In this document: piece after piece, positions 3 through 7,540 of the stretch
Layout of the letters: each line of letters starts with the position of its first letter
How positions within the stretch are numbered: the stretch's first letter is position 1
From: Actinoallomurus purpureus
Lineage (GTDB): Bacteria > Actinomycetota > Actinomycetes > Streptosporangiales > Streptosporangiaceae
Direction: 5' to 3'
Assembly: GCF_024055795.1 (NCBI RefSeq)
Contig: NZ_JAMXMY010000001.1
Location: 62,001-126,000 of the forward strand
Length of the DNA stretch: 64,000 nt
Notes under the pieces: generated by a model
Database searches by the model: none
What the model saw: the letters and a program-made list of their open reading frames with translations, nothing else
What the model was told of the DNA's origin: nothing
Made by a program: the position numbers and the translations under genes

Positions 3-326
3 TGCTCGGTCGCGGTCATCCACCACATGGACTTCACGAGCGCGCTCACCAGGATGGCGGAGCTGCTGCGCCCGGGCGGACGACTGGTGATCGTCGGCCT
101 CGCCCGCGAGCGCACGCCCTGGGATCGGGCGTGCAGCGGTGCCGCGCTGCCCGCCGTCATGGTCCTCGACCGCCTGTACGGCAAGACGGACCCGCCGGGC
201 ATGCCGATGGTGGAGCCGGAGATGAGCTGGGGGCAGGTCCGCCGGGACGCGCTGCGGCTGCTGCCCGGCGCGCGGTTCCGGCGGCACCTGCTGTGGCGCT
301 ATTCGGTGTGCTGGCGCAAACCCTGA
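3..326 (+). CDS. SAM-dependent methyltransferase, C-terminal part
   Basis: The reading frame is open from the left edge of the window and stops at 324-326, so only the last 107 or so codons are present. The visible segment reads LLRPGGRLVIVGL, the usual beta-strand 4/5 region of class I methyltransferases after the Asp-rich motif, followed by a C-terminal tail with many Arg residues. This fits a small-molecule methyltransferase of the Methyltransf_11/25 type, but the SAM-binding GxGxG motif lies outside the window. About 80 bases separate it from the next operon, so it is probably transcribed separately. The substrate cannot be told. Confidence 0.7.
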   Translation, partial: CSVAVIHHMDFTSALTRMAELLRPGGRLVIVGLARERTPWDRACSGAALPAVMVLDRLYGKTDPPGMPMVEPEMSWGQVRRDALRLLPGARFRRHLLWRYSVCWRKP

Positions 327-374
327 CCGACGTGGCGTCGTGGTCTCCGTGCGCGAGGTGTCGGCCGACCGGAC

Positions 375-380
375 TAGGGT
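375..380 (+). promoter_or_regulatory. Possible -10 element of the SMC operon
   Basis: TAGGGT lies 26 bases before the ATG at 407 and matches the usual actinobacterial -10 form TAnnnT. No convincing -35 is visible, so this is a weak call resting on position in the only gap before the four-gene operon. Confidence 0.3.
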
Positions 381-406
381 CGTGCCTCGGACGACAGGGG
401 GTGACG

Positions 407-1666
407 ATGACCGGGCAGATGCGCTTCGAGCACGACGACGTCATCGCCGTGCGCGAGGCGTTCCACCGCCGGCTCAAGGCGTTCGCCGCGCCGGTCGCCG
501 GCGACCGCGCGGCGGTCACCGAGGACCTCGACCAGCTCGAGGTGGCGCGCGCGATCCACGCCGCGTTCGGCGACCACGAGGCGTACGGCGGCCTCACCCG
601 CGCCGAGCTGGCCCAGTCATGCGCCCACATCTGCGGCCGGTCGCAGTTCGACCGCTACTTCGAGCTGTTCCTGAAGATGGAGCTGGTCGAGCCGTTCACC
701 CAGCGCGATTACGAATGGCGGTACGTCCTCAACCCGGCGTCGTCGGCGGCGCTGCTGGTGTTCGGCCGGCTCGAGGCCAGCGGCGGGCTGCAGGAGCTGG
801 TCACGCTGCTCGACGCCACCTATCGCGAGCTGGAGCGTGGCGGGGCGACGAGCCGTTCGGTGGCCGAGGCGCTCGTGCAGGCGCGGCGGGAGTTCACGAT
901 CCGGTCCGGGCACCTGCGCCGGCTCGTGCGCCACCGGCCGCTGGAGGAGCTGATCGCCGAGCAGCGTCACCACGGCGACGCCAAGCGGCTGTTCACCCAG
1001 GCGGACCGCATCGTCGAGCGGGTCAACCGCGACTTCGGCGAGCATCGCCGGGCCGCTGAACGCATGGCCGAGGCCGCCCTCCAGTACGTCAACGCCGTGC
1101 AGGAGTACATGGCGCGCCTCCTCGACCAGGCCGCGCAGCGCCGCGACTTCACCCTCCTGGACGCCGAGGCCTACCGCACGGCCGCGATCACCGGCAGCCC
1201 CGAGGCCCTCGCCGCCGTCTTCGACGGCATCGTCTTCGACCCGCCCCGGCTGCACCTGTCACCGCACGAGGTCCTGCGAACGATCGAGACGCACCAGCCG
1301 CGGCCGCGTCCCCGGCAGCGCCGGCCGCGGCGTGAGGACCCGCTGCCCGAGGGCGACCCGGTCGAGGAGGCAGCCGAGCGCCTTCGCGAATACCAGGCGT
1401 CCCGGCGGGCGGCCATCGAGGCGCACCTCGGCTCGGAGGACGACGTCGACCTCACCGAGCGGCTGCGCGGCACGCCGTGGCGGCGGTCGGTGCGCATCAT
1501 CGCCGACGTCCTCGTCTCCGCGACCGACCCCGACCTGCCCTTCGAGCCGGTGCTGGGCGACCGGCTGCACGTCACGGCCGACCAGCCGACGACGTACGTC
1601 AGTGAGCTCGGCGTGCGGGCGGTCAAGGCGGAGCGTGCCACGACCCGGGGCGACCGCGATGACTGA
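407..1666 (+). CDS. Kleisin-like (MukF/JetA-type) subunit of an SMC complex
   Basis: First gene of a four-gene operon ending in an SMC-type ATPase. I chose ATG 407 because a GGGGG ribosome site sits 6 bases before it; an in-frame GTG at 401 is possible, and the open frame upstream lacks coding character. The 419-residue product has an N-terminal winged-helix-like part (about 1-115, with GGLTRAELAQ), a long helical middle (about 120-300), a charged Pro/Arg linker (about 300-330) and a compact C-terminal domain. That order and size match bacterial kleisins of the MukF/MksF/JetA type, which bridge the SMC heads. The assignment rests on architecture and on the neighbouring ATPase, not on a recognised signature. 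Overlaps the next gene by 8 bases (ATGACTGA), which suggests translational coupling. Confidence 0.6.
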   Translation: MTGQMRFEHDDVIAVREAFHRRLKAFAAPVAGDRAAVTEDLDQLEVARAIHAAFGDHEAYGGLTRAELAQSCAHICGRSQFDRYFELFLKMELVEPFTQRDYEWRYVLNPASSAALLVFGRLEASGGLQELVTLLDATYRELERGGATSRSVAEALVQARREFTIRSGHLRRLVRHRPLEELIAEQRHHGDAKRLFTQADRIVERVNRDFGEHRRAAERMAEAALQYVNAVQEYMARLLDQAAQRRDFTLLDAEAYRTAAITGSPEALAAVFDGIVFDPPRLHLSPHEVLRTIETHQPRPRPRQRRPRREDPLPEGDPVEEAAERLREYQASRRAAIEAHLGSEDDVDLTERLRGTPWRRSVRIIADVLVSATDPDLPFEPVLGDRLHVTADQPTTYVSELGVRAVKAERATTRGDRDD

Positions 1667-2216
1667 GCCGGAGCCGTCCGCCCTGACGCTGGCCCGGCTG
1701 CGCGCCCTCGGCGGTGCACCGGCACGGACGTCGGCGGCCGCGTCGGCCGCGGCCCGCGCGGCCGGGCGGGAGATCGCCCTGGCCTCCGTCGCCGGGGACC
1801 AGGTCGCGCTGCTGACCTGGCCGGCCGACCTCGACCTGGCCGAGCAGTCCGAGCACGCGCTGTGGACGCCGCCGCCCACCGCCCTTCAACTGACCTTCGC
1901 CGCCTGCGTACGGCTGTGCTGGGAGGACCCCCACCTGCACCCCCACCCGGGCCGGGCGGTCGCACCGGAACGCGTCTTCGCGCTGCTCGCCCGCGTGAAC
2001 GCCCGCCCGGCGGCGGACGAGGCGATCCCCATCTTCGACAACGCGCCCAAGCGCTCCCTGTCCTGGCTGCGGCGCACGGCATGGGTCGACCAGGACGACG
2101 CGGGCGTCCGGTTCGGCACGCGGCTGGCGACGCTGCCCGACGACGAGGTGGCCGCGCTGCGCCGCGTGTACGAGGCGATGCCGGATCCTGAGGAGACGGA
2201 GGCGGCGGATGACTGA
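1659..2216 (+). CDS. Small winged-helix protein of the SMC operon (KITE-like candidate 1)
   Basis: 185 residues, starting at ATG 1659 inside the stop region of the kleisin-like gene. The N-terminal 50 residues are Ala-rich and low in complexity. The rest has helix-rich segments and ends with a helix-wing pattern (SLSWLRRTAWVDQDDAGVRF). In MukBEF, MksBEF and Wadjet operons the small gene beside the kleisin encodes a KITE protein, which binds the kleisin and regulates DNA entry. By position and size this could be one, but sequence alone does not prove it. It ends in the same ATGACTGA overlap with the following gene, so the four products are probably made in fixed ratio. Confidence 0.5.
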   Translation: MTEPEPSALTLARLRALGGAPARTSAAASAAARAAGREIALASVAGDQVALLTWPADLDLAEQSEHALWTPPPTALQLTFAACVRLCWEDPHLHPHPGRAVAPERVFALLARVNARPAADEAIPIFDNAPKRSLSWLRRTAWVDQDDAGVRFGTRLATLPDDEVAALRRVYEAMPDPEETEAADD

Positions 2217-2850
2217 CGGCGTCCCGGCGCTGGAGACGCTGCCGCACGACCTGCGCCTCGCCGTACGCCGGGCGGTGGCGGTGGTCGAGGAGGCGGACCA
2301 GCCGGTGCCCATGCCCCTGTACCGAGGGCTCGCGCCCGATCTGCGGCCGTACGTCGAGGCGATGCTGGGCGCGGCCGGCCGGGTCCTCATCGAGCTGCGC
2401 GAGGGCTTCATCTCCGGGTACGACGACGCGGTCGCGCGCGAGCTGACCCGGGAGGGCATCGGCGCCCTCGAGCCCATCGACGCGGCCGTCCTCGCGCTGG
2501 TCCTGCTGCACGGGTTCGTCATCCCGAAGGCCCAGGGGGAGCTGCCGCGCACGGCACGGGCGTACCAGGCCCGCCGGGTGAGCTTCGAGACGCTCGTCAA
2601 CTCGCGCATCCGCTCCCGCGAGCAGATCCGGCAGTCGCTGCAGCGGCTGCGCGACCGGGGGCTCCTCCAGCCCGGCGACAGCGCGCCGATCCGTCCGGGC
2701 CCGCAGTTCCTGCGCCTGACCCCGCAGGCCTCGAACCTCATCGAGGAGAACCTCATCCTGCTGGCGGACCCCGACGGCGCGCTCGCCGACGCCATCCGCC
2801 GCCGGCGGGCCCAGGCGCGATCCCAGGCCATCGAGGGAGAGAAACGGTGA
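2209..2850 (+). CDS. MukE/JetB-like winged-helix protein (KITE-like candidate 2)
   Basis: 213 residues, start ATG 2209 overlapping the previous stop. The middle is mostly helical. Residues of about 120-180 form a clear winged-helix: SREQIRQSLQRLRDRGLL followed by the wing PGPQFLRLTP, then a basic C-terminal helix. This is the expected form of a KITE subunit (MukE, MksE, JetB, ScpB), which binds the kleisin of an SMC complex. The operon thus carries two small winged-helix proteins where MukBEF and Wadjet have one; a KITE heterodimer, as in Smc5/6 with Nse1 and Nse3, is one reading. The stop overlaps the GTG of the ATPase gene in GTGA. Confidence 0.55.
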   Translation: MTDGVPALETLPHDLRLAVRRAVAVVEEADQPVPMPLYRGLAPDLRPYVEAMLGAAGRVLIELREGFISGYDDAVARELTREGIGALEPIDAAVLALVLLHGFVIPKAQGELPRTARAYQARRVSFETLVNSRIRSREQIRQSLQRLRDRGLLQPGDSAPIRPGPQFLRLTPQASNLIEENLILLADPDGALADAIRRRRAQARSQAIEGEKR

Positions 2851-5800
2851 CGAGCGAGATCGACATCGAGGCGGCGGGCCTCGGCGGCGTGGTCGGCCGG
2901 CGTGACCTGATCGCGCTGCAGACCCTGGAGATCGGCACGCTCACGTCGCATCCGATCCCGATCATCCCCGGACAGTTCATCACCGTCGCCGGGCGCGGAC
3001 CGGTGGACAGCAACGGCTCGGGCAAGACGACCTTCCTGTCCGCCATCACGCTGATCCTCGCCGACCCGCAGTGGCGGCTGCACGAGAGCGGGAAGTACGC
3101 CGCGCGGCTGCTGTTCCGCCCCGAGCCGGTGGGCCTGTCCGCCAAGGAACACGGGCCGGCGACCGCCGGCTACATCGTCGGGGTGTTCGGCGAGCGCGGC
3201 GCGGACGAGCGGTCGGCCCTGTCGGTGTGGATCCGCCTGCAGTCCGGCGGCAGCCCGTACGCCGAGGTCCGCTGGAGCGACGGCCTGGTCCTCGCGCGCG
3301 GCGCGGACGACGCCGAGCGGCTCGAGACCGCGCACCGCACCTGGGCCACGCTGCGCAACCGGGTGCCGGTGACGCGGATCGGCGACGTCCTGTACGGCTC
3401 GTCGCCGCGCTGCATGTCCTACCTCCACACCGACGGCACCCGCCCGGAGGCGCCGTCGCTGGTGTCGGAGGAGCTGTCCCACCTCAAACCCGAGGAGATC
3501 GGCGACTCCCTCATCGCCCTCGCCGGGCTCACCGATCTCGTCGACAAGGAGAGCGACGCGCGCGCCGGGCGCGTCGAGATCGAGTCCCGGTACGCCGAGG
3601 AGCGCAGCCGCGACGAGCAGCGCCGCCTCGAGGAGGAGAGCGACCTTGCGGCCGTGGCCGACCGCGACCGCGCGCGGGAGCACGTCGCGCGGGTCGCCGT
3701 GCTGCGGCGGCTGCACGCCGCCCGGCGCTACCTCGACGTCCACGCCGACGACGCCGCCCTGGCCGAGCAGATCGACGAGCTCGGCGCGCGGGTCGACGAA
3801 CGCCGCGAGGCCCTCCGCATGGCCCAGGCGGAACTGGACGAGCTCGCCGTTCCCGAGGAGCTGCAACAGCGCGTCGCCGAGCTCGACGGCGTCCACCAGT
3901 CACTCCAGGAGGACCTGAGCGGCCTGATCGGCGAGGAGGGACGGCACGAGGGCGAGCTCGAACGCCTGGGCGGGTCACGGCCGGCGCTCACCCGGCTCGC
4001 CGAGCTGTGGGACGGCACCCCGGCCGAGACGCTGCGCACCGACCTCGAGGCGTCGGCCCCCGAGCTGATGGAGGCCGAGTGGGCCCTGAGGCAGGCCACC
4101 GGGCAGGTCGACGAGGCGCGTACGGCACTGGAGCGGATCCAGGCCGGCCACGACCCCGACACCGCCGCGATCCTCGCGCGGCTCGACGCGGCGGGCCTGC
4201 CCGCCGCCGGTCTCCTCGACGCCGTGACGCTCGACGACGGTGTCCGCGCCGCGTGGGAACCGCGCCTGTGGCCCTACCGGCACGCCGTGGTGGTGGCCCC
4301 CGGCGACCATGACGCCGCCGTGGACGCGCTGCGATCTCTGCCCGGTTCCGTTCTCGTGGCCGCCGACGGCCCGCTCGACGCCGCGCCCGACGCCCCGCCG
4401 CCCGCCGGGGTGACCGGCCGGATCCCGCTCCGGCGGTTCCTCGCCTCCCTGGAACGGCGGGTCGCGGCGGTGGCCGGCCCGGCGAGCGCCCACGACGCCG
4501 ATCCGGGCGTCACCGTGATCGGCGGCTTCGCCGAGCCGATCGCCGGCCGCGACGCCCGCATCCGGCAGGCGCAGACCCGGCTGGCGGAGGCGGAGGAGCG
4601 CGCCGAGGCCGCCCGGGACTCCCGCGCGGCCGTCGCGAGCCGCCGGGCCCACCTGGAGAACGCCCTGAGGCATGCCACGGCGGCCGGTCAGCTCGCCGAG
4701 CTGGACGAGAGGCTCGCCGAGCTGAAGGATCGCCTCGCCGACGTGCGCCACCGCCGTACGAACCTGAAAGCACGGGTCGCCGAGGCGAGCACCGCCTGGA
4801 TGCGCGCCCGGAGCAAGGTCGACACTCTGGAGCAGCAGCGGCGGTTCCTCGGCCAGAAGGTGACCCAGGCGCGGCAGCACCTCACCGACGCCGAACGCGA
4901 GGTCGCCAAGCTCACCTCCCGGCGCGCGGACCTGCCCCTGCGGTACTGGACCGGTCAGTGGGGCGGCGACGCCGCCGCGGCGGAAGAGCTCCTCGGCGCG
5001 CAGGAGCCGAAGCTGCGGGCCGCCGGGCCGGACGCCCTGCTGAACCACGCCCGCGACGCGCTGAACGAGGCGGTGCACGCCCTGTACGCCCGGACGCCGG
5101 CACCCTCCGACCTCCAGGACCTCATCGACCGGTTCCGTGACTCACTGTCCACCGAGTCGCTCGCCGACCGGCTCCGACGGCTCCAGACGCTGACCGAGGC
5201 CCTCGACGACGTGCTCACCGGCCTCGCCGAACACGACCGGCGCACCCGCGCGCAGATCGAGGAGGAACGCCGGCGACGGCAGCTGGCGCTCGGCGAGCTC
5301 GACACCGTACGCGAGGAGCGCGAGGAGGAGCTGCAGACGGTGCAGAAGCTGGTGAAGGAGGTCGTCAAGGGCCGTCTCGACGCGGTCAGCGCGACCTACG
5401 ACCGGCTCGACCGCGCCCGCGGCGGGTTCGGCGCCCGGCTCATCATCCAGGCCCGCGAGCCCGCCAAACCCGAGCAGCCCCGCCGGTGGGCCGTCACCCC
5501 GGCCTGGGTCCGCGACCTGGGCGGGGAGGCCATCCCGTACAAGGAGACCGGGAACAGCGCGCAGAAGAAGATCCAGGCGATCCAGCTGGTGCTCGCGGCA
5601 CTGCTCAGCGACGAGAACGCCGAGGGACGCGTCCTCGTCCTCGACGAGCTCGGCAACAGCCTCGGCGACCAGAACCGCTCTGACATCCTCGCCGCGCTGC
5701 AACGCGCCGCCAACTCCCAGCGCGTCACGGTGTTCGGCACGTGCCAGGACGCCGTCTTCCCGCACGCGGCGAGCTACACGGGCGAGATCCTGTGGTTCAG

Positions 5801-5915
5801 CAGGCACGCCGTCACCTCGCCGTTCAACGACCCGACCCGGGTCTGGGGGTTCGACGACAACGGCGACCGCGTCGAGCTGACCCAGGACTGGATCACCCGC
5901 GGCGCCCCCGGCTGA
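2847..5915 (+). CDS. SMC-type ATPase (MukB/JetC-like) with split coiled coil
   Basis: 1022 residues, GTG start within a GTGA overlap. The Walker A region is DSNGSGKTT (residues 54-62), with Asp at the first Gly of the usual GxxGxGK. Two long Glu/Ala/Arg coiled-coil arms (about 240-420 and 560-880) flank a globular central region (about 430-560) in the place of a hinge. The C-terminal head has a signature-like stretch TGNSAQKK (901-908) and Walker B VLVLDE with D933-E934, then a D-loop-like GDQNR. Family knowledge: such ATPases extrude or clamp DNA together with a kleisin and KITE proteins. The length is typical of JetC/MksB and shorter than MukB. No nuclease or toprim gene follows: the next feature is a terminator and a gene on the other strand. 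A role in plasmid defence or chromosome folding is inferred. Confidence 0.8.
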   Translation: MTSEIDIEAAGLGGVVGRRDLIALQTLEIGTLTSHPIPIIPGQFITVAGRGPVDSNGSGKTTFLSAITLILADPQWRLHESGKYAARLLFRPEPVGLSAKEHGPATAGYIVGVFGERGADERSALSVWIRLQSGGSPYAEVRWSDGLVLARGADDAERLETAHRTWATLRNRVPVTRIGDVLYGSSPRCMSYLHTDGTRPEAPSLVSEELSHLKPEEIGDSLIALAGLTDLVDKESDARAGRVEIESRYAEERSRDEQRRLEEESDLAAVADRDRAREHVARVAVLRRLHAARRYLDVHADDAALAEQIDELGARVDERREALRMAQAELDELAVPEELQQRVAELDGVHQSLQEDLSGLIGEEGRHEGELERLGGSRPALTRLAELWDGTPAETLRTDLEASAPELMEAEWALRQATGQVDEARTALERIQAGHDPDTAAILARLDAAGLPAAGLLDAVTLDDGVRAAWEPRLWPYRHAVVVAPGDHDAAVDALRSLPGSVLVAADGPLDAAPDAPPPAGVTGRIPLRRFLASLERRVAAVAGPASAHDADPGVTVIGGFAEPIAGRDARIRQAQTRLAEAEERAEAARDSRAAVASRRAHLENALRHATAAGQLAELDERLAELKDRLADVRHRRTNLKARVAEASTAWMRARSKVDTLEQQRRFLGQKVTQARQHLTDAEREVAKLTSRRADLPLRYWTGQWGGDAAAAEELLGAQEPKLRAAGPDALLNHARDALNEAVHALYARTPAPSDLQDLIDRFRDSLSTESLADRLRRLQTLTEALDDVLTGLAEHDRRTRAQIEEERRRRQLALGELDTVREEREEELQTVQKLVKEVVKGRLDAVSATYDRLDRARGGFGARLIIQAREPAKPEQPRRWAVTPAWVRDLGGEAIPYKETGNSAQKKIQAIQLVLAALLSDENAEGRVLVLDELGNSLGDQNRSDILAALQRAANSQRVTVFGTCQDAVFPHAASYTGEILWFSRHAVTSPFNDPTRVWGFDDNGDRVELTQDWITRGAPG

Positions 5916-6070: not shown

Positions 6071-7540
6071 TCACTCGGTGTGGTCTGCCGTGCAGGGCTT
6101 GGCGGGGACGCGGGCGGCGCGGAGGGCGGAACGCCGGATCTTGCCGGCGTCGTCGCGCAGCGGCTCGGTGACGAACTCGAACGTCTTCGGGATCTTGTAG
6201 GCCGCCAGCCGCTCGCGCAGGTGGGCCAGCACGGCCGCCTCGTCGACGTCGGCGTCGCCGTCGGCCTGGACGATCGCGTGCGGTGCCGAGCCGAGGTCGT
6301 CGTCGGGCAGCCCGATGACGGCGGACGAGCGCACGGCCGGGTGCTCTTCCAGAGCACTCTCGATCTCGGCCGGGTACACGTTCGAGCCGCCCACGAGGAT
6401 CATGTCGGTGTCGCGGTCGGTCAGGTAGAGGTAGCCGTCGGCGTCGGTGTAGCCGAGGTCGCCCAGCCAGTCCCAGCGGCCGTCGCTGCGCGCCTCGGCG
6501 CCGATGTAGGTGTAGGTCGGCCCGGCGTCCGGGCGCATCCACACCTGGCCCACCTGGCCCGGCCCGAGCGGCCGGCCGGACTCATCGCGCACCTGGATGT
6601 CACCGGCCAACGGGCGGCCGACCGAGCCGCGGTGGGCGAGCCATTCGGTGCCGCTGATGCGAGTGGCGGCCTGAGCCTCCGTCCCGGCGTACAGCTCCCA
6701 GATCCGCTCCGGGCCGAGCCAGTCGATCCACGCCTGTTTGAGCCACGGCGCGATCGGCGCGCCGAGGTGGAACACCACGCGTAGCGACGACAGGTCCGTG
6801 GCCGTGCGGTCGGCCTCCGGCAGCCGCCAGATCCGATGCATCATCGTCGGCACGGCGTACATCCAGTCCACATGGTGCCGCTCGGCCAGCCGGAGCGTCT
6901 CCGCCGCGTCGAAGCGCTCCATCAGGACCACGTGCTTGCCGAACAGCAGCGCCGCGGTGAGGGACACGAAGGGGCCGTTGTGCGTCAGCGGCGCCGTGAC
7001 CAGCGCCGCCCCTCTCTCTGACATCTGCGCGGCGAGACCGAACAGGCCCGCGCGCTCGGCGACGCCGGGCTCGACCGTGGCGATCAGCTTCGGGCGTCCG
7101 GTGCTGCCGCCGGACGTGAGGATCTTCCACGGCTGCGGGACGATGCCCGGCGGAGCGGACTCCGGCTGGTTCGCTCCCGCGGAGGGCGGGAGAGTGCCGG
7201 GGCCGGTGGCGGCGACCACGACCCTGGGCCGGGCCAGTTCGAGGACCGGCTCGCGCTCGGCGGCGGGCATCCGGTCGGAGACCGGGACCGGCGTGCCGCC
7301 GGCCTTCCAGGCGGCCAGCAGCGCGACGACGAAGTCGACGCCGTTCGGCAGGACGATCGCGACGCGGTCGCCGACGCGGACGCCGCGGTCCCGCAGTTCC
7401 CAGGCGAGGCGGTTGGCGCGCTCGTCCAGCTCTCGCCGGGACAGGGTGACCGTGCCGCAGGTCAATGCCGGCGTCTCGGGATCCGCCGCCACGAGCCGCG
7501 TCAGGGCGACGCCGAGCGGGGTTCCGGTGACTGCGGACAT
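6071..7540 (-). CDS. AMP-dependent acyl-CoA synthetase/ligase
   Basis: 489 residues of the adenylate-forming (ANL) superfamily. It activates a carboxylic acid with ATP to an acyl-adenylate and then forms the CoA thioester. Visible motifs: P-loop TSGGSTGRPK near residue 145, ELYAGTEA (motif A5), the GWLGDLGY-like segment DWLGDLGYTDADGYLYLTDR (A7/A8), GGSNVYPAEIE, and the C-terminal catalytic Lys region DDAGKIRRS. It is close in form to bile-acid or short fatty-acid CoA ligases; the substrate is unknown. The ATG at 7540 is preceded by a GAAG-type ribosome site. A TetR gene lies upstream on the same strand, and a large palindrome sits in the ligase promoter region, so control by that TetR is likely. 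Confidence 0.85.
   Translation of the reverse strand: MSAVTGTPLGVALTRLVAADPETPALTCGTVTLSRRELDERANRLAWELRDRGVRVGDRVAIVLPNGVDFVVALLAAWKAGGTPVPVSDRMPAAEREPVLELARPRVVVAATGPGTLPPSAGANQPESAPPGIVPQPWKILTSGGSTGRPKLIATVEPGVAERAGLFGLAAQMSERGAALVTAPLTHNGPFVSLTAALLFGKHVVLMERFDAAETLRLAERHHVDWMYAVPTMMHRIWRLPEADRTATDLSSLRVVFHLGAPIAPWLKQAWIDWLGPERIWELYAGTEAQAATRISGTEWLAHRGSVGRPLAGDIQVRDESGRPLGPGQVGQVWMRPDAGPTYTYIGAEARSDGRWDWLGDLGYTDADGYLYLTDRDTDMILVGGSNVYPAEIESALEEHPAVRSSAVIGLPDDDLGSAPHAIVQADGDADVDEAAVLAHLRERLAAYKIPKTFEFVTEPLRDDAGKIRRSALRAARVPAKPCTADHTE

Follow-up and report, generated by a model that had tools for sequence, protein, structure and literature searches.

What could a Wadjet-like DNA motor do without a nuclease of its own? 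The question is raised by a four-gene operon near the start of a 64,000-nucleotide stretch of the Actinoallomurus purpureus genome (assembly GCF_024055795.1, contig NZ_JAMXMY010000001.1, positions 62,001 to 126,000, forward strand), the whole of which we refer to as the window. Wadjet systems combine a motor that recognises DNA circles with the cutting of those circles. An earlier interpretation based on the letters and open reading frames (ORFs) alone, the sequence-only reading, had proposed that the operon encodes a kleisin-like protein, two different small winged-helix proteins and a structural maintenance of chromosomes (SMC)-type ATPase, with no nuclease linked to them. We lean towards the view that these genes encode a divergent Wadjet-like motor of the JetABC/MukBEF type, whose own JetD is absent and which acts without a nuclease of its own.

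The four genes, whose products are designated P0001 (kleisin-like), P0002 (WH1), P0003 (WH2) and P0004 (SMC), overlap by 8, 8 and 4 bases, and all four ORFs are intact. Their G+C contents at codon positions 1, 2 and 3 (0.78-0.80, 0.47-0.57 and 0.93-0.96, respectively) are those of coding sequence. Hidden Markov models (HMMs) built from relatives, with the window excluded, recovered P0001 at E=2.7e-105, P0002 at 6.8e-19, P0003 at 6e-42 and P0004 at 3.4e-212, and none of 800 shuffled copies was listed by the same models at E <= 10. The operon structure claimed in the sequence-only reading is thus borne out by the coordinates, the coding composition and the relatives' HMMs.

Support for the proposed identities of the subunits came from predicted folds and homology. 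The nine best Foldseek rows for the model of P0001 are all MukBEF or MukEF entries, and the model also has a fold match to a chain named JetA; as modelled, it is a kleisin of JetA/MukF architecture, including a MukF-like N-terminal domain. For the two winged-helix proteins, we turned to the relative at locus L077 (relatives and other loci are numbered with an L), in which WH1 and WH2 are fused into one protein. The model of this fused protein matches proteins of the kleisin-interacting tandem winged-helix element (KITE) class, its best fold match being JetB of Neobacillus vireti Wadjet-II, and by HMM P0002 corresponds to one half of the fused form in relatives and P0003 to the other. This homology supports the view that the two small winged-helix proteins, which are indeed different from each other, are KITE-like. 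The double KITE can no longer be regarded as a distinctive feature of the operon, however, given that the best match of the fused form is a Wadjet-II JetB. P0004 has the Walker A and Walker B motifs, with the conservation expected of the SMC-type ATPase of a Wadjet. An N-[S/T]-A motif would sit at the expected place of the ABC signature; no LSGGE-type signature was seen by eye.

Despite this architecture, the operon is barely visible to standard searches. None of the window proteins matched a Pfam or NCBIfam model above its cut-off, and this includes DUF2397, DUF2398 and DUF2399, the families of Wadjet type II. PADLOC gave no match at E <= 1 for P0001-P0003 and only weak JetC/LmuB stretches for P0004 (best E 3e-7), with genuine Wadjet type I, II and III proteins scoring 1e-71 or better in the same control, save one type III JetB that went unmatched. 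Sequence searches of the PDB returned only weak matches, led by one chain of SMC3 (E 4e-4) and the winged helices of HlyU (E 0.02). The same held for ten proteins from four loci of the family, where PADLOC assigned clear names just to two JetD nucleases and a kinase domain and gave weak matches or none for the motor subunits (including those of L035, L077 and L058). We therefore did not file the window operon as Wadjet although it is built like JetABC, because it lacks both a JetD and recognition by PADLOC.

Profile comparisons place the family near Wadjet without placing it in any one type. The SMC profile matched that of Wadjet-I JetC (probability 95.7, E 8.9e-9, 337 columns) within the coiled coil, and the family's JetD profile matched our local profiles of Wadjet JetD types I, II and III with probabilities of 92.7, 62.0 and 95.5. 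The kleisin and KITE profiles matched none of the local profiles of the three types, which are shallow (1-4 rows). In a control between the known types, the JetA profiles of types I, II and III were mutually unmatched (probability 0.1-0.4) and JetB of type I against type II reached 8.1. Since the JetA and JetB proteins of known types also fail to match, the family appears to be roughly as far from each Wadjet type as the types are from each other. Of the loci used here, L127, L129, L131 and L134 carry Wadjet labels based on gene layout and JetD-family matches, L128 is type I by PADLOC, and the type II loci were checked by Pfam (L122) or PADLOC (L132). The best KITE profile match to WH2, a weak one (probability 26.6), is a small protein in the KITE position of a type III Wadjet (L135:2029-2823, + strand), which itself matches no PADLOC model at E <= 1e-5 though its JetA and JetC do. 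Taken with the JetA and JetB fold matches and with the JetD genes linked to relatives (below), the SMC profile upholds the proposed kinship with Wadjet.

How widespread is the operon, and is its gene order kept? A kleisin search of 99 other genomes gave 18 relatives, none of them among the seven that share the genus; likewise, a search with the SMC found the system in one of eight genomes of the genus, namely its own. Across the phylum, at least 3 of 396 genomes were positive, a lower bound as two candidates were scored per genome. Scanning a collection of species genomes with an SMC alignment yielded at least 181 relatives among 590 candidate stretches, whereas the scan with a single window protein yielded none. 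We analysed the best 80 of the 181, so that the proportions given here are not population frequencies and are inflated by near copies. By title, all 80 belong to Actinomycetota, as found with search patterns that derive from one actinomycete alignment and may miss kin elsewhere; the genera include Streptomyces, Nocardia, Actinomadura, Lentzea, Blastococcus, Kineosporia, Micromonospora, Jiangella, Amycolatopsis and Nonomuraea, and there is one metagenome-assembled genome of Nitriliruptoria. The order kleisin-WH1-WH2-SMC on one strand is found at 74 of the 80 loci, and five of the other six lie on cut contigs. WH1 and WH2 are fused in 28 of these 74, which argues that they work as a pair. At the sixth, L102 (9016-13367), SMC and JetD-like genes are present and no kleisin or KITE genes were found in the 9 kb upstream; this locus has probably decayed. 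Viral contigs held no relatives. P0004 matched nothing among phages and gave one partial match among plasmids, in a chromosome-sized Nonomuraea record; the JetD of L035 also had one match among plasmids, to a type I system (the record's annotation reads Wadjet with DUF4194).

The sequence-only reading had presented the operon as one without a linked nuclease. That holds for the window and fails for most of its close relatives. A JetD_C (PF09983) search of 100 related genomes matched exactly beside the operon in two genomes, and in the gene-order survey a flank HMM scan showed that a JetD-type Toprim gene adjoins the operon in 17 of the 20 relatives of clade A, the clade that contains the window (see below), nine of them downstream and eight upstream. 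These adjoining genes rule out the idea that the family has no nuclease. The exceptions within clade A are the window, L051, L054 and L056, where "no JetD", here and throughout, means no JetD HMM match at E <= 1 in the fetched sequence. When 12 of the 17 nucleases were scanned with Pfam, nine scored above the cut-off of JetD_C, and the other three (L042, L053 and L082) above that of DUF2399; those of L033, L036, L037, L065 and L091 are assigned on the HMM basis alone. Residues E314-N315, D361 and D363 of the JetD Toprim domain, which we take to be its metal site, are invariant in 15 sequences picked after inspection.

In contrast to most of its close relatives, the window has no ORF that the JetD HMM matched at E <= 1, either within its full 64 kb or in the 16.0 kb upstream. 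The sequence-only reading had also asked whether a JetD gene elsewhere always accompanies the operon. In the window's own genome there were no JetD_C matches, and the family's JetD profile, with all 73 candidates scored, matched nothing at E <= 10; the same profile gave E values of 1.6e-202 and 1.0e-211 in two genomes with a linked JetD. Two other loci of this genome were recorded. On contig 5, L122 (5289-13599) is a Wadjet-II-like locus in which the open frame of the SMC gene shifts from one reading frame to another; on its sequence, the gene is broken or the assembly is in error. On contig 49, L123 (7264-8466, + strand) encodes an orphan JetD-like DUF3323-DUF2399 protein with no SMC gene seen beside it.

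To place the window among its relatives, we used two trees. The SMC tree has 83 rows, comprising the window and 82 of the 98 relative loci L014-L111 (L014, L020 and L032-L111), and leaves out the 16 other loci of L014-L031, some of which come from the same genomes. The kleisin tree has 70 rows, comprising the window and the 69 of the 80 loci that have a complete kleisin. In the SMC tree, the window falls within a set of 21 rows (clade A; support 100), 17 of which have a linked JetD, and the linked-JetD label changes 3 times, against a mean of 18.0 for shuffled labels. The kleisin tree also separates clade A from the remaining loci, clade B, with support of 100 (4 label changes against a shuffle mean of 16.2), and joins the window to six Streptomyces loci (L032-L037) with support of 95, a join that the SMC tree leaves open. 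The window's branch is long and both trees carry a long-branch warning, making its exact placement unsure. If the placement is right, loss of JetD in the window's lineage would be the simplest account of these unrooted trees.

Clade B differs in what stands beside the motor. None of the 46 loci of clade B2, which lie among L039-L111 and are mainly from Thermomonosporaceae and Streptosporangiaceae, has a JetD match, and at least 1.5 kb of sequence is present on both sides in 34 of them. Rows of clade B2 mostly cluster by genus. Genes resembling SbcC/SbcD (phmmer E <= 1e-20 against those of L078) occur within the fetched sequence, up to ~9 kb away, at 25 of the 46 loci; clade A has them at 1 of its 20 loci and clade B1 at none of its 16. 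The clade B2 operon looks like a candidate housekeeping SMC complex, judging by these sequence patterns.

Clade B1 (16 loci) is mixed, with three loci of the Toprim form, four of a kinase form and nine without a JetD-like gene. One of its nucleases, that of L109, falls below all Pfam cut-offs and is 84% identical to that of L081, which passes. In the kinase form (L058, L073, L075 and L098, from two Streptomyces, a Saccharothrix and a Micromonospora), the N-terminal half of the neighbouring clade's JetD is retained, with 37-47% identity across 115-209 residues to the proteins of L081, L102 and L109 (E 9e-27 to 4e-31), and a Ser/Thr kinase domain stands in the place of Toprim (Pkinase E 1.6e-27 to 2e-26). 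PADLOC matched the L058 kinase to the defence kinase PD-T4-6 (E 8e-28). The proteins are 85-98% alike across the four loci and the operons fall into a single clade (support 100), so the kinase form goes back to one event, kept in three genera. Separately, a protein encoded near a relaxase gene on a plasmid of [Kitasatospora] papulosa (L142, 3065-5383), annotated as "dsDNA nuclease domain-containing", is 45% identical in part to the kinase part, and its sequence hints at a possible further use of the kinase in defence.

We envisage the window's complex as a long-coiled-coil SMC ATPase joined by a MukF/JetA-like kleisin and two different KITE subunits, rather than a KITE homodimer. Published work on Wadjet describes a JetABC motor that loads onto DNA and extrudes it, with JetD doing the cutting; in two systems the activity of JetD depends strictly on both JetABC and ATP, and Corynebacterium MksG touches the complex via the kleisin (PMC10586767, PMC10123090, PMC12647877). 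By homology, the ATP-driven ring of the JetD-linked relatives would load, extrude DNA, recognise small circles and trigger the JetD cut. The window's motor would most likely still load on DNA and extrude it, with no nuclease of its own, and its effect might be to compact, trap or burden plasmids or the chromosome. We infer the loss of JetD in the window's lineage, the retention of motor activity and, indeed, everything said here of function.

Other readings of the window's operon were considered. The complex may use an unlinked nuclease in trans, such as the JetD of the genome's type II Wadjet or the orphan DUF3323-DUF2399 protein, which we consider unlikely. The genome does hold these two DUF2399 matches, one in the Wadjet-II-like locus on contig 5 and one as the lone gene on contig 49, but neither protein is of the family's JetD kind or is matched by its profile. 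Moreover, DUF2399 matches occur in every one of the seven sister genomes, none of which has this SMC system, so DUF2399 proteins do not track it. A chromosome-folding condensin like MukBEF, derived from a plasmid-defence ancestor, strikes us as less probable again. Clade B2, with its missing JetD, its grouping mostly by genus and its SbcC/SbcD-like neighbours, has the traits of a housekeeping complex; the window's copy, however, lies outside that clade and, with one occurrence in eight genomes of the genus, looks accessory. We give still less credence to the view that a JetABCD-type system has lost JetD here and is now decaying. The long branch, the absent JetD, the sporadic presence and the related L102 locus without kleisin and KITE genes would fit it; four intact, tightly coupled ORFs with strong coding composition and Walker residues in place speak against it. 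Finally, the idea that the four ORFs arose by chance in GC-rich sequence, prompted by several long antisense ORFs overlapping the operon, is refuted by homology (relatives' HMMs at E 6.8e-19 to 3.4e-212) and by the conserved gene order (74/80 loci) and deserves practically no weight.

The features discussed are collected in Table 1. Downstream of the SMC gene, the sequence-only reading had placed a terminator and an opposing gene. The opposing gene is there and encodes an AMP-binding ligase, and the inverted repeat is a plausible terminator; it lacks a T run, and the predicted RNA fold of the whole gap is only a little better than that of shuffled sequence (z -1.69, with 11 of 200 shuffles at least as good).

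Table 1. Positions of features in the window and, for the kinase form, in related loci
Feature	Position	Strand	Remarks
Kleisin-like protein P0001 (419 aa)	407..1666	+	ORF; fold by predicted model
Regions of P0001	residues ~36-122, ~125-246, ~318-409		winged-helix N-terminal; helical bundle, then linker; C-terminal domain
WH1 P0002, first KITE-like winged-helix protein (185 aa)	1659..2216	+
WH2 P0003, second KITE-like winged-helix protein (213 aa)	2209..2850	+
SMC/MukB/JetC-like ATPase P0004 (1022 aa)	2847..5915	+	GTG start
Walker A, SMC residues 51-63	2997..3035	+	G51, P52, D54, S55, N56, G59, K60, F63 invariant (16 aligned sequences including window)
N-[S/T]-A motif, SMC residues 902-908	5550..5570	+	N903, A905 invariant; 904 nearly invariant T (alignment of 16)
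Walker B plus trailing glutamate, SMC residues 929-944	5631..5678	+	D933, E934 invariant (16 aligned sequences including window)
Inverted repeat with two perfect 12-base arms and a 5-base loop	6011..6039		possible terminator; lacks a T run
AMP-binding ligase gene	6071..7540	-	opposes operon, downstream of repeat
Kinase-form JetD-like gene	L058:12063-13433, L073:12063-13433, L075:12060-13430, L098:11916-13286	+	4-base overlap with SMC stop codon

Several genes beside the relatives' operons were tried as alternative effectors and rejected, being ordinary enzymes by Pfam or present in one clade only. These were the alpha/beta hydrolase (L084 and L092) and the CoA-binding protein (L070) downstream in Jiangellaceae, NTPase_1 downstream in L054, the short-chain dehydrogenase upstream in Jiangella, and an M50B peptidase upstream in Streptosporangiaceae. 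The last of these, a gene for an M50B-type membrane peptidase, lies 5' of the kleisin gene in L021/L087, L022, L096, L106 and others, often adjacent to it, and its matches are confined to Streptosporangiaceae loci and further genomes of the window's family; it probably reflects neighbourhood, not function. The large genes downstream of Actinomadura copies (L041, L047 and L057) have either no Pfam domain or HEAT repeats.

We found no description of the family, of its JetD-less clade or of the kinase form in searches of an open-licence library, which omits most subscription journals; a survey of ABC ATPases by Aravind's group reportedly may mention the family. Known Wadjet types occur in 42% of actinobacterial genomes (PMC10482375), and an overlooked relative is plausible given how common they are in Actinobacteria. 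We regard it as an evenly balanced proposition that these loci form an unrecognised SMC-kleisin-heteroKITE family of Actinomycetota, separated from Wadjet I, II and III by about the distance between those types, which serves as a common sensor of DNA topology with exchangeable outputs: a JetD Toprim nuclease, a Ser/Thr kinase on the N-terminal half of JetD, or no linked effector, as in the vertically kept housekeeping clade and in the window. If this is true, the kinase form would report circular or invading DNA by signalling rather than by cutting it, and a sister family with the cutter in place in some members, missing in others and exchanged for a kinase in a few would allow sensing to be separated from killing. 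Shifts of SMC complexes between chromosome folding and immunity would become testable inside one family, and defence scans would be missing a class of SMC operons.

Among the closest known systems is Wadjet type II (JetABCD; DUF2397/DUF2398/SMC/DUF2399; Neobacillus vireti 9qe0/9qe1), whose JetB is the best fold match of the relative's fused KITE. It differs in that the kleisin, KITE and SMC have no profile match to it (with shallow profiles), no JetD is linked in the window, and the window, like 46 of the 74 loci, has separate genes for its two KITE proteins. Wadjet type I, or MksFEBG (JetABCD; DUF3375, DUF4194, SMC, DUF2220), shares the coiled-coil profile of the SMC (probability 95.7), and the relatives' JetD proteins exceed the JetD_C cut-off and match PADLOC JetD1 models. 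Type I differs in encoding a single small JetB; its kleisin and KITE cannot be detected by profile in the family, and JetD lies 5' of the kleisin in 8 of the 20 clade A loci. MukBEF resembles the window's operon in the fold of its kleisin and as a complex without a nuclease, whereas MukBEF and MksBEF have one KITE gene, with MukE a homodimer, and the window has two different KITE genes and belongs to a family whose close relatives carry JetD. Lastly, the resemblance to Smc5/6 with Nse1-Nse3 is at the level of the fold only, the window's system being bacterial and having one SMC gene.

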